From Rhizobiales bacterium 64-17 (GTDB taxonomy: Bacteria; Pseudomonadota; Alphaproteobacteria; Rhizobiales; Xanthobacteraceae), in the NCBI GenBank assembly GCA_001899285.1, contig MKWA01000022.1:1-64000 (forward strand): a stretch of DNA of 64,000 nucleotides. Direction: 5' to 3'. The notes under the pieces are model-generated. The model made no database searches, had not been told where the DNA came from, and was given only the letters and a program-made list of their open reading frames with translations. Both the position numbers and the translations under genes were made by a program. Position 1 is the first letter of the stretch. Each line of letters opens with the position of its first letter. Shown here in pieces: positions 19,637 through 57,080 of this stretch.

Positions 19637-19677
19637 GAGAGGCGCCTGTTGCCCGCAGGCGCCTCTCATTTTTTTTT
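19637..19677 (+). terminator. Rho-independent terminator of tadE-tadG
   Basis: A 12-bp arm beginning GAGAGGCGCCTG pairs with CAGGCGCCTCTC across a short loop, followed by about nine T. It is the strongest terminator in the window. Confidence 0.92.
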
Positions 19678-39246: not shown

Positions 39247-40152
39247 ATGGCGACACGCGCCTACTGGTCGGGACGAATCCGGCTCGCTCTGGTGTCGATC
39301 CCGGTGGATGTTATTCCCGCCACCAAATCCTCGCACCGCATCGCCTTCCATCAGGTGCACGAGCCGAGCGGCAAGCGCATCCGCTACGAGAAGGTCGTGC
39401 CGGGGATCGGGCCGGTCGATGCCGACGACATCGTCAAAGGCTACGAGGTGGAGAAGGGCAAATATGTGCTGCTCTCCGACGAGGAAATCGACGAGGTCAA
39501 GCTGGAGGCGAAGAAATCGGTCGATCTGGTGCAGTTTGTCGATCAGGATGACATCGATCCGATCTATTTCGAGCGGCCGTTCTTCGTGCTGCCGGCCGGC
39601 GACAGCGAGGATGCGGACGAAGCCTATGCGGTGCTGCGCGACGCTTTGAAGAAAACGCGCAAGATCGGGCTGGGCCAGATCGTCGTGCGCGGACAAAGCT
39701 CGATCGTCGCCATCAAGCCGTGCGGACGCGGGCTGGTGATGGAAACGATCCGCTACGCCGACGAGGTGAAGAAGGCCGACACCGCGTTCGACGATATCGA
39801 GGACGGCACGCCCGACAAGGAATTGCTCGAGCTTGGCGAGGAACTGATCAAGAAGAAGTCCGGAAAATTTCATCCCGAAAAATTCAAGGACGCTTACACT
39901 ACCGCACTGCGCGAACTGATCGACGCCAAGGTCGAGAAGCGCGCGCCGAAGGCGATCGAGGAGGCAGCACCGGCATCAAATGTCATCAATCTGATGGACG
40001 CGCTGAAACGCTCGGTGCGCGGCGACAGTGGCCGATCGGGCGCCGCGACCAAACCAAAAGGCAAATCGCGCGCGGTTAGTGCGGCAGCACGCAAGAAGCC
40101 GGCGAAGAAAGCGACGAAGAAAGCCGGAAAATCGAAACGCAAGGCGGCGTGA
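39247..40152 (+). CDS. ku: Non-homologous end joining protein Ku
   Basis: DNA-end binding homodimer of 301 residues for bacterial NHEJ. The Ku core spans residues 1-255 and begins with the standard ATRAYWSGRIRLALVSIPVDV; RIRYEKVVPG, YFERPFFVLPAG, GLGQIVVRGQS and ELLELGEELIKKKSGKF are family motifs. The C-terminal 45 residues are very Lys/Ala-rich, the kind of tail that modulates DNA binding and LigD recruitment. A GAGAGG site precedes the ATG. The LigD phosphoesterase ORF starts 3 bases after the stop, so the two are one transcription unit. Confidence 0.97.
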   Translation: MATRAYWSGRIRLALVSIPVDVIPATKSSHRIAFHQVHEPSGKRIRYEKVVPGIGPVDADDIVKGYEVEKGKYVLLSDEEIDEVKLEAKKSVDLVQFVDQDDIDPIYFERPFFVLPAGDSEDADEAYAVLRDALKKTRKIGLGQIVVRGQSSIVAIKPCGRGLVMETIRYADEVKKADTAFDDIEDGTPDKELLELGEELIKKKSGKFHPEKFKDAYTTALRELIDAKVEKRAPKAIEEAAPASNVINLMDALKRSVRGDSGRSGAATKPKGKSRAVSAAARKKPAKKATKKAGKSKRKAA

Positions 40153-40155
40153 GCC

Positions 40156-40965
40156 ATGGCCAAGCGGGCAGCGAAGAAGGCCGCCAGGAAACGCGCTCCG
40201 GCAAAAAAGAAGAAAGCCGGCACCGCAAAGCGACGCGCGTCGTCGCCGCGTTCGCGGGTCTCCGCCGCCGATCCGCTTGACCACTACAAGGCGAAACGCG
40301 ATTTCAAGAAGACACAGGAACCGAGTGGAGAACCGAGCGGCGCGCGGCGTCGCGTCAGCAAGGCCGGCAGGCTGTCCTATCTCATTCAAAAGCACGACGC
40401 CTCGCGGCTGCATTACGATTTCCGGCTGGAATGGAATGGCACGCTGATGAGCTGGGCAGTGCCGAAAGGGCCGAGCGAGAATCCCGACGACAAGCGCCTC
40501 GCCGTGCATGTCGAAAATCATCCGGTCGATTACGGCGGCTTCGAAGGCACGATCCCGCAAGGCGAATATGGCGGCGGCACGGTGATGCTGTGGGATCGCG
40601 GCATCTGGGAGCCGCAAGAAGGAGTCGATGTCGACGCGGCGCTGGCCAAGGGCAAGCTCGCCTTCATCCTGCATGGCGAGCGGCTGAAGGGAAAATGGGC
40701 GCTGGTACGGCTGCGCGCGCGCAGCCCGAAGGACAAGGACAACTGGCTGCTGATCAAAGAGCTTGACGACTATGTGAAGCGCAGCGGCAAGCTCGTCACC
40801 GAGCGCGACGTGAAGAGCGTCGCCAGCGGCCGCAGCATGAACGAGATCGCCGGCGGCAGGCGCGTCTGGCATTCCAACCGCAAAGGCCGTGCGGCGGCTG
40901 CGGCCGCTCCGGAAATCCTTGCCGGTCCCGCGCATCGCCGCTCGGCTCAAAAAAAAAGTCGGTAG
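40156..40965 (+). CDS. ligD: LigD N-terminal part: 3'-phosphoesterase domain
   Basis: The first 269 residues of ATP-dependent ligase D. After a Lys/Arg-rich head the phosphoesterase (PE) domain is clear: FVIQKH-type SYLIQKHDASRLHYDFRLE with the catalytic His and Asp, WAVPKGPS, and VDYGGFEGTIPQGEYGGG with WDRG. PE removes 3'-phosphate or ribonucleotides from break ends. The frame ends at TAG 40963-40965, just after a run of nine A. The rest of LigD continues in the -1 frame (see 41052). It may be a stand-alone PE protein, a frameshifted pseudogene piece or the 0-frame product of a slippage site. Confidence 0.9.
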   Translation: MAKRAAKKAARKRAPAKKKKAGTAKRRASSPRSRVSAADPLDHYKAKRDFKKTQEPSGEPSGARRRVSKAGRLSYLIQKHDASRLHYDFRLEWNGTLMSWAVPKGPSENPDDKRLAVHVENHPVDYGGFEGTIPQGEYGGGTVMLWDRGIWEPQEGVDVDAALAKGKLAFILHGERLKGKWALVRLRARSPKDKDNWLLIKELDDYVKRSGKLVTERDVKSVASGRSMNEIAGGRRVWHSNRKGRAAAAAAPEILAGPAHRRSAQKKSR

Positions 40966-40986
40966 GGTCTGAGACGAAGCTCTCAG
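40949..40986 (+). other. A9 slippery run and hairpin joining the two LigD reading frames
   Basis: Nine A followed by G (40949-40958) contain the A-AAA-AAG heptamer known from -1 frameshifting. After 10 bases, CTGAGA (40969-40974), the loop CGAAGC and TCTCAG (40981-40986) form a perfect 6-bp hairpin. A -1 shift, or one extra A in the mRNA or in the true genome sequence, restores one LigD frame with no intervening stop. Confidence 0.75.
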
Positions 40987-41051
40987 CCGCGACTGTTCGA
41001 AACGACAGCGGCAAGCTGCTGGCTTTCGTCGCGCCGCAACTGGCGACGCTG

Positions 41052-42902
41052 GTGGACGCGCCGCCGCAGGGCGGCGGCTGGCTCTACGAAATCAAATATG
41101 ACGGCTATCGCGCGGTGGCCTCGCTCGCCGGCGGCCGGGTGGCGATCCGCACGCGCAACGGACTCGACTGGACCGACAGATTCGCGGCGTTGGCGCCGGC
41201 CTTGCAGGCGCTGCCGTGCCGCGACGCGGTGCTCGACGGCGAGATCGCGGTGGCGGATGCGCAGGGCCATACCGATTTCGGCGCGCTGCAGGATGCGCTC
41301 TCCACCGGCTCCGGCAAGCTGGCCTACTACCTGTTCGATCTGCTCGCGCTCGATGGCAAGGATTTGCGCAGCCTGCCGCTGCGTGACCGCAAGGAGACCT
41401 TGCGCAAACTGATCGGAAAGAATGCCGGGCCGCTGATCTATTCCGATCACATCGAGACCGAGGGCGAGACGATGTTCGCGCGCGCCTGCGCGCTCAAGCT
41501 CGAGGGCATCATTGCCAAGCGCGCCGACGCGCCGTATCGCTCGGGCCGCACCAAGAGCTGGCTCAAGATCAAATGCGGGATGGAGCAGGAGTTCGTCATC
41601 ATTGGTTGGCGCGCTTCCGACAAGGCGGGGCGGCCGTTCTCGTCGCTGTTGCTGGCGGTGCATGACGGCGGCAAGCTGCGTTACGCCGGCCGTGTCGGCA
41701 CCGGTTATACCGGCGCGCGGCTCATGCGGCTGGCGGCGGCGTTTAAAAAGCTCGCGCGCAAGTCGCCGCCTGTTGATGACGTGCCGCGCGCCATCGCCCG
41801 GCACGCGCATTTCGTCGCGCCGGAACTGGTCGCGGAAATCGAATTCCGCGGCTGGACGCGCGACGGCCTCGTGCGGCACGGCGCGTTCAAGGGCCTGCGC
41901 GGCGACAAGCCGGCGCATGAGGTGGTGCGGGAGCAGGAAATGCCGACGAAGAAGGCGGTGCGGAGCGTCGCGGCGAAAGCGAAACAGGCGAAAAAACGCA
42001 GCGCGCCCGCGCAAAAGCGCGCGACCGCCGACGACGGATCAGAGATGATCGAGGGCGTGCGCGTCACCCATCCGGACCGCGTGCTGTTCGCCGACCACAA
42101 CATCACCAAGCGCGAACTGATCGATCACTACATCGCCGTCGCCGACCGGATGCTGCCGCACATCGCTAACCGGCCGATCAGCCTGGTCCGCTGTCCGCAG
42201 GGCAGCGGCAAGGCGTGCTTCTTCCAGAAGCACGCGTCCGACGGTTTCCCCGATGCCTTCAAGAAAGTGCCGATCCGCGAGAAGTCCGGCAAGCAGGACT
42301 ATCTCTACATCACCGACGTGCAGGGCCTGATCGCGTCGGTGCAAGTCGGCGTGCTCGAACTGCACATCTGGCAATGCCATGTGGACGAGATCGAAAAACC
42401 GGACCGGCTGGTGTTCGATTTCGATCCCGACGAGGGGCTCGACTTCGCCGCGGTGCGCGCCGCGGCGCGTGACATGCGCGACCGGCTGAAAAATCTTGGC
42501 CTCGAATCCTTCGCCATGGTCACTGGCGGCAAGGGCGTGCATGTGGTCGCGCCGCTGACGCGCGGCCATAGCTGGGATCAGCACAAGGATTTCGCCGAGG
42601 CCATGGCTCGGCTGATGGAGGAAGAGGAGCCGGAGCGGTTCGTCGCCAACATGGCGAAGGCGAAGCGCAAGGGCCGCATCTTCGTCGACTATCTGCGCAA
42701 CCAGCGCGGCGCGACGGCGATCTGTCCGTTCTCGACCCGTGCGCGCAAGGGTGCGCATGTCGCCCTGCCGGTCTCGTGGACGGCGCTGGCGCGGTTGCCG
42801 AATGCGCATCCCGCTGCGGTCGGCGAGATGGCGAAGGTGTTGCGCGGCAAAGATCCGTGGCCGAACTATTTCAAGCTGCGGCAGAAGCTGCCGGTGCTTT
42901 GA
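41052..42902 (+). CDS. ligD: LigD C-terminal part: ATP-dependent ligase and polymerase domains
   Basis: Ligase and polymerase modules of LigD. The frame is open from the A9 run near 40949, and the first conventional start is GTG 41052. The ligase domain begins at once with nucleotidyl-transfer motif I YEIKYDGYRA (Lys about residue 15), later GIIAKRADAPYRSGRTKSWLKIK and an OB-fold. The polymerase (primase-like) domain begins near residue 330 (VTHPDRVLFADHNITKRELI) with the metal site FDFDPDEG. PE-LIG-POL order matches the Pseudomonas/rhizobial type. If made alone it would retain end-joining catalysis but not PE activity. Confidence 0.93.
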   Translation: MDAPPQGGGWLYEIKYDGYRAVASLAGGRVAIRTRNGLDWTDRFAALAPALQALPCRDAVLDGEIAVADAQGHTDFGALQDALSTGSGKLAYYLFDLLALDGKDLRSLPLRDRKETLRKLIGKNAGPLIYSDHIETEGETMFARACALKLEGIIAKRADAPYRSGRTKSWLKIKCGMEQEFVIIGWRASDKAGRPFSSLLLAVHDGGKLRYAGRVGTGYTGARLMRLAAAFKKLARKSPPVDDVPRAIARHAHFVAPELVAEIEFRGWTRDGLVRHGAFKGLRGDKPAHEVVREQEMPTKKAVRSVAAKAKQAKKRSAPAQKRATADDGSEMIEGVRVTHPDRVLFADHNITKRELIDHYIAVADRMLPHIANRPISLVRCPQGSGKACFFQKHASDGFPDAFKKVPIREKSGKQDYLYITDVQGLIASVQVGVLELHIWQCHVDEIEKPDRLVFDFDPDEGLDFAAVRAAARDMRDRLKNLGLESFAMVTGGKGVHVVAPLTRGHSWDQHKDFAEAMARLMEEEEPERFVANMAKAKRKGRIFVDYLRNQRGATAICPFSTRARKGAHVALPVSWTALARLPNAHPAAVGEMAKVLRGKDPWPNYFKLRQKLPVL

Positions 42903-57003: not shown

Positions 57004-57080
57004 GGTCCCGTAGCTCAGCCGGATAGAGCAGCGGTTTCCTAAACCGAAGGTCACAGGTTCGACTCCTGTCGGGACCACCA
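57004..57080 (+). tRNA. tRNA-Arg (anticodon CCT)
   Basis: 77 bases folding into a full cloverleaf: acceptor GGTCCCG/CGGGACC, D arm GCTC/GAGC, T arm ACAGG/CCTGT with TTCGACT loop, and an encoded CCA. The anticodon loop TTCCTAA gives CCT, reading AGG. The outermost anticodon-stem pair (27-43) is a G/A mismatch. Confidence 0.97.

Follow-up and report, generated by a model that had tools for sequence, protein, structure and literature searches.

Nine-base runs of A or T support efficient slippage in vivo, and a run of this length is used in the dnaX gene of T. thermophilus, where one gene gives two products that share their N-terminal part, nearby stops lie in the other frames and about half of the product is full length, according to the passages on dnaX in the review PMC5009743. 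The dnaX genes of the Chlorobium/Chloroherpeton type are split by -1 at a poly-A run of 7-10 A, and their long product is thought to be recoded, as described in the GeneTack paper (PMC3711429). In E. coli dnaX, two products are obtained from one gene by a -1 ribosomal frameshift at an A-rich site. For transcription in E. coli, the results given in PMC5574713 include an exponential rise of single-base insertions with run length up to 9 and a rarity of deletions in homopolymer runs. The ligD gene described here resembles the dnaX gene of T. thermophilus in its nine-base run, in the shared N-terminal part of its two predicted products and in the nearby stops of its other frames, and it resembles the Chlorobium/Chloroherpeton-type genes in its -1 split at poly-A. 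It differs from T. thermophilus dnaX in gene and pathway, and the long product is read in the zero frame there, whereas that of the present gene would need a slip. Unlike T. thermophilus dnaX, the relatives of this ligD show both arrangements, with the long product in the zero frame or in the slipped frame. In comparison with the Chlorobium/Chloroherpeton-type genes, both arrangements occur within one bacterial family and the length of the run is nearly fixed.

The locus was analysed in a stretch of 64,000 nucleotides from Rhizobiales bacterium 64-17 (contig MKWA01000022.1, positions 1 to 64,000, hereafter the window) with a GC content of 65%. The genes and junction features described here lie on the forward strand. 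Ku, the end-binding protein of non-homologous end joining (NHEJ), is encoded at 39247..40152 (TIGR02772 Ku_bact, E 3.8e-87; Pfam Ku, E 1.2e-50), and a gap of 3 nt separates its end from the start codon of the 3'-phosphoesterase (PE) ORF. The PE ORF (40156..40965, 269 aa) contains the PE domain at residues 41-204 (TIGR02777 LigD_PE_dom, E 3.8e-65; LigD_N, E 2.1e-45), followed by a C-terminal linker that ends in AQKKSR. The PE-frame codons at this junction are TCG GCT CAA AAA AAA AGT CGG TAG, in which a run of nine A (A9, 40949..40957), the proposed slip site, is followed by GTCGG and by the TAG that stops the PE frame (40963..40965), 5 nt 3' of the run. A TGA in the third frame lies 12 nt 3' of the run (40970..40972), so both frames other than that of the ligase end soon after A9. 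The frame of the ligase and polymerase domains (LIG-POL) is -1 relative to PE and is open from stop to stop at 40767..42902, with conserved protein from about 41019. It encodes an ATP-dependent ligase domain (41034..41927; TIGR02779, E 1.7e-100, residues 6-303 of 41019-42899) and a primase-polymerase domain (42057..42791; TIGR02778, E 2.8e-97, residues 347-591; Pfam LigD_Prim-Pol, E 1.2e-89). The first-pass annotation of this DNA had likewise read a PE ORF stopped by the TAG after A9 and a LIG-POL frame open in -1, and the sequence bears this out.

The profile searches showed all three domains of LigD with Ku adjoining. The domain order PE-LIG-POL is that of LigD in Pseudomonas and Agrobacterium. 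Conventional LigD has the same three domains beside Ku; in the window, the frame is broken at A9 in the linker, and PE and LIG-POL are encoded in different frames rather than in a continuous one. The split ligD is the sole LigD-type match (E 1e-30) in the 4.63 Mb genome to which the window belongs (G000). A 371-codon open frame (39976-41091, minus strand) lies antisense to Ku and PE and is probably a by-product of the high GC content. Elsewhere in the window, a tRNA-Arg gene with a CCT anticodon is located at 57004-57080.

The family search for relatives covered 391 genomes, an even sample of a larger group, with a threshold of E up to 1e-180 for a close LIG-POL and one genome per species in the comparison. 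Close LigD was found in 21 genomes, the window's included. The PE-LIG linker holds a run of A8-A10 in 14 of these (exactly A9 in 12, A10 in G096 and A8 in G236), and the other seven are without an A run of 8 or more. Only three of these 14 genomes consist of a single contig (G128 and G137 with A9, G096 with A10). Relative to PE, the LIG-POL frame of the 14 run-bearing genes is -1 in six (G000, G001, G167, G197, G116 and G074), +1 in one (G096, with A10) and 0 in seven (G128, G149, G035, G313, G137, G236 and G091). Of the 12 species with exactly A9, six have LIG-POL in frame and six do not, so that indels at other places in the linker determine the frame. Among the seven run-less genes, those of G121, G082 and G219 are shifted by +1 and the other four are in frame. 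Second identifiers of counted genomes (L001, L006-L008, L035-L043) were left out, and the junction counts leave out L015 and L018, whose stretches hold no PE-LIG pair, and L002-L005, which are not LigD. In six of the seven shifted run-bearing genomes, the shifted gene is the sole LigD-type match at E 1e-30, a count that does not include the genus of G121, G082 and G219. A second, partial LigD-like match with one internal TGA was seen at G197:C124:135-1121 and covers 330 query residues.

The junctions outside this group are different. All of the 101 other LigD junctions, taken from three differently drawn samples (24 + 71 + 6), are in frame, and their longest A run is 7. No stop was found in the linker of any of the 112 in-frame junctions (101 of the outgroup and 11 of the clade). 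Shifted genes make up 7/14 of the run-bearing junctions and 3/108 of the others (Fisher test, p 5e-6, relatedness ignored). A gene-order search of 397 genomes gave six matches beyond the window, all of one other family, in frame and with A runs of at most 7, and none of 236 plasmid-borne LigD records reached the clade, all being below 60% identity. On a tree of 29 LIG-POL proteins, changes between in-frame and out-of-frame genes number at least 8, of which 6 are within the run-bearing rows, and the presence of the run changes only 3 times; of the 26 inner branches of this tree, 12 are well supported and 6, including deep ones, are open. Judged by these comparisons, what seems to be conserved is the run and not the frame.

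The scarcity of A9 elsewhere and the divergence around the run were used as the background for this conservation. In the whole G000 genome, A9 occurs 4 times with both strands counted. Two of the other three sites adjoin terminator-like inverted repeats, as judged by eye, and the third is L137; none of the three matched any of the three other A9 stretches in the nearest relative genome compared (G001), which is 83% complete. A9 is found once in the 3.7 Mb of G167, at the ligD site itself, and three times in the 8.2 Mb of G137, and the highest counts among the 14 are those of G096 (12 match positions, with longer runs counted repeatedly), G236 (10) and G091 (9). The only other nine-base run of A or T in the window (19669-19677, T9 on the plus strand), one of the three other sites of G000, lies beside a terminator-like inverted repeat and is A7 in G001, with flanks that are 95% identical. 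Over the 30 nt on each side of the ligD run in the 14 genomes, aligned without gaps, the mean pairwise identity is 0.21-0.47 in 54 of the 60 columns and 0.51-0.74 in the remaining six. Thus, the A9 counts, the flank identities and the A7 comparison indicate that the run is conserved beyond chance while its flanks diverge. In G001, a further A9 near position 525 of L142 (G001:C68:2600-3600) has the pairing flanks CCGCTTC/GAAGCGG and is perhaps a terminator or another junction.

Closely related pairs were also compared. G001, a sister species, has 92% nucleotide identity to the window, and at its junction both A9 and the TAG are unchanged and LIG is again open in the -1 frame; beyond A9 and the TAG, the linkers of G000 and G001 have diverged with two compensating 1-nt gaps. 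Pairwise omega values (dN/dS, from our own NG86 script) are 0.107 for LIG-POL and 0.160 for PE between G000 and G001, and 0.061 for LIG-POL between G082 and G121, both members being shifted in either pair. The mixed pair G167/G149 and the in-frame pair G236/G137 have omega values of 0.235 and 0.254. The shifted LIG-POL is under strong purifying selection. The mixed pair also shows how the default frame changes next to an unchanged run: the junction reads GGCGT-A9-CTTCGCG in G149 and GGCGT-A9-GACTTCGCG in G167, and this 2-nt indel adjoining A9 swaps the default frame and product between G149 (in frame) and G167 (-1). Both genes encode the same PE-only tail, KKTSRSRRS, which ends at a TAG lying within the F-V codons of the ligase.

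The stops after the run were compared among the 14 run-bearing species. The stop-distance test gave combined P values of 0.003 and 1e-4, with single P values floored at 0.001 and relatedness ignored. For the seven in-frame genes combined, P is 0.09 in the LIG+1 frame and 0.017 in the LIG+2 frame, and the distances are not short in every species. The stop-distance statistics are only moderately supportive of a slippage-type layout. A rare GTA or ATA codon creates a TAG or TAA in the LIG+1 frame in 6/14 run-bearing genes (G128, G167, G149, G197, G137 and G074; in G128, another stop comes earlier), where the codon use of the individual genes predicts 0.48 (P 1.2e-6, from a test chosen after the sequences had been seen and with the relatedness of the species ignored). 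Such stops are present in 0/7 run-less relatives and in 2/37 scorable outgroup junctions, the 37 of the 101 that matched the motif used.

In the best explanation of these features, A9 is a site in ligD at which transcriptional slippage is programmed. RNA polymerase would slip on the run, yielding mRNAs in which the number of A's is below or above nine. In the window, the nine-A mRNA would give PE alone, consisting of the PE domain, the linker and the TAG stop, and an mRNA with one extra A would give the full PE-LIG-POL ligase. In the relatives with a fused frame, the unslipped mRNA would encode the full ligase and a slipped mRNA would encode PE alone. The run would be kept and the default frame would be free to drift, and one gene beside Ku would provide the full NHEJ ligase as well as a free enzyme for processing 3' ends. 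Estimated from their lengths, PE alone would have about 30 kDa and full PE-LIG-POL about 100 kDa. That ligD is recoded at a conserved A9 is well supported by the comparison and very probably correct, and the suggestion of the first-pass annotation that recoding or transcriptional slippage yields PE together with PE-LIG-POL gains good support from the comparison among species. That programmed transcriptional slippage at A9 yields PE alone plus full LigD is likely, at a somewhat lower level of confidence. We infer that slippage occurs and is due to the RNA polymerase rather than the ribosome, and likewise that PE alone is useful and accumulates together with the full ligase. It would consist of an entire domain for 3'-end processing plus a linker, and the PE domain is described in PMC8656161 as converting 3'-phosphates to hydroxyls and trimming ribonucleotides; whether PE alone has a real function is an evenly balanced question in our judgement.

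The junction carries a run of the length looked for in slippage genes, about 8-10 A or T at a frame junction, but several observations run counter to slippage. The nearby stops of the in-frame genes lie in the frame that is reached by a deletion or by two insertions; one inserted base in any of these seven genes leads to a first stop only 50-132 nt further on. The run of G236 is A8 only. Since deletions are rare in such runs (PMC5574713), G096 would reach its +1 frame only through two insertions or through an infrequent deletion. The genes of G121, G082 and G219 are shifted by +1 without a run, and thus the run is not the only way in which a shifted ligD survives. The in-frame A9 genes could also be on the way to losing the run.

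The same two products could be made from one mRNA by a programmed -1 ribosomal frameshift on the A run, through a tandem slip of lysyl-tRNAs at A_AAA_AAA or A_AAA_AAG. All six -1 species have such a heptamer in the PE frame and would permit this shift, namely A_AAA_AAA in G000 (at 40950-40956, within A9), G001 and G116, and A_AAA_AAG in G167, G197 and G074; a 4-nt match resembling a Shine-Dalgarno (SD) sequence is present 8-10 nt upstream in G149, G236 and G074. However, six or seven A's suffice for the ribosome, yet at least nine are found in 13/14 genes, the A10 gene of G096 requires +1 rather than -1, and the in-frame genes keep the run. Upstream of the run, SD matches did not exceed 4 nt in a crude exact-match scan of all 14, and downstream folds are no better than shuffles in the 10/14 that were folded (z -0.62 to +1.83; G236, G313, G137 and G091 left out). 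These points favour transcriptional slippage, and a ribosomal shift is unlikely to be the mechanism. The window itself also departs from E. coli dnaX. The A-AAA-AAG heptamer that the first-pass annotation had singled out as a dnaX-type site is present, but in the register of LIG and not of PE. The 6-bp hairpin that it had placed 10 nt after AAAAAAG (CTGAGA/TCTCAG, 40969..40986) exists as well and has a free energy of -5.9 kcal/mol on its own (z -1.89), but it is absent from the best fold of the same stretch in G001, and the 61-nt stretch that follows the run has no folding advantage over shuffled sequences (z -0.04), which makes the hairpin probably incidental. About 10 nt upstream, where an SD-like element would be placed, the window has none, its best exact match being 3 nt long and 22 nt away. 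Because of the wrong register and the absence of the hairpin from the sister's best fold, the heptamer and the hairpin are not likely to be working parts in the window.

A neutral ratchet shares the slippage mechanism with the preferred reading and differs from it only on function, so that its probability overlaps with that of programmed slippage. A9 would have arisen by chance, slippage would tolerate frame-breaking indels, the split lineages would become locked in and PE alone would be a by-product. The shifted genes are indeed found only in a clade in which the run is present or, judging from the tree, may once have been present, and transcriptional frameshifting reportedly rescues an interrupted gene in Citrobacter. 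Against the ratchet, six in-frame species have exactly A9 without needing it for full LigD, in genomes where A9 is rare; and the rare-codon stops in the LIG+1 frame of the in-frame G128, G149 and G137 suggest that the short product is kept, although they could be relics of an earlier frame. We regard the ratchet as possible and rather doubtful. Phase variation at the DNA level, in which the run length would flip between cells and switch LigD on and off, is in line with the mutability of A runs and with the lengths of 8, 9 and 10 found between species. It is very unlikely, as the length does not set the frame (A9 being both in and out of frame) and as variable lengths rather than mostly 9 would be predicted. 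Similarly improbable is a division into two genes, in which LIG-POL would have a start of its own or be reached by reinitiation past the PE stop. Candidate start codons are present in some shifted genes (ATG 18 nt before the ligase core in G001, GTG 99 nt before it in G121 and G219, and TTG 93 nt before it in G074). However, in G000, G096, G116 and G082 the open stretch that leads up to the conserved PQLA holds no ATG, GTG or TTG, and the separate translation of LIG-POL, which the first-pass annotation had also offered, is unlikely because these are 4/10 of the shifted genes. The first start codon of G116 lies 156 nt inside the core, past the catalytic lysine, which we take to be that of the motif KxDG; the candidate starts of G167 and G197 are only far upstream, inside PE; and separate genes would leave A9 in the in-frame genes unexplained. 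Extremely unlikely is a sequencing error or a dead gene. The assembly is a draft and the site is a homopolymer, but the same A9 and TAG are present in the genome of the sister species and A9 is also found in the single-contig G128 and G137; an omega of about 0.1 and the lack of any other LigD-type match in the genome speak against this reading as well. The first-pass annotation had held an error or a loss-of-frame mutation to be equally possible and had proposed an alignment with sister strains, in which a continuous frame without an A run would point to an error or recent mutation; the alignment gave the opposite outcome. Because the sister species shares A9 and the TAG and 12/21 genomes have exactly A9, the split is, on this comparative evidence, not an isolated error or a fresh mutation.

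The three run-less shifted genes belong to one genus (code g48; G121, G082 and G219, with L036, L038 and L039 being the same as L122, L125 and L126). Their PE frame ends in UCC UGA and their LIG-POL frame is +1, whereas ligD of G142, from the same genus, is fused. UCC_UGA is listed in PMC5009743 as the +1 shift site of most antizyme genes. The three genes resemble the antizyme genes in having UCC_UGA with the second frame in +1; they differ in being bacterial, and the likeness is confined to the shift site. An antizyme-like +1 shift at UCC_UGA in bacteria is thus a possible reading of these sequences, and decoding may have been replaced in g48 rather than the split undone. As a tentative extension, which we consider somewhat doubtful, slippage at the conserved A9 in this clade of Xanthobacteraceae might determine how much free PE is made relative to full LigD, irrespective of the frame in the DNA, and a related genus might have switched to an antizyme-like +1 ribosomal shift at UCC_UGA. 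If so, a gene family would have switched its decoding mechanism and yet kept both products, and bacterial NHEJ would be dosed by RNA polymerase slippage.

None of the open-licence PMC papers examined is about LigD recoding. The word 'frameshift' is absent from the main texts of PMC8656161 and PMC7719229, 'LigD' is absent from the first 300,000 characters of the review PMC5009743, and the main text of the GeneTack paper PMC3711429 has 'ligase' once, for a Mur ligase. If programmed slippage at A9 is correct, ligD would be a case of programmed recoding in a double-strand-break repair ligase. The family would also offer a particularly clear natural experiment, with a run length at or close to nine despite at least 6 changes of the DNA frame among the run-bearing genes. 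Free PE is predicted as a second LigD product in organisms that are annotated with a broken or an ordinary LigD, and a single recoded gene may lie behind some of the LigD entries whose domains are divided between proteins.
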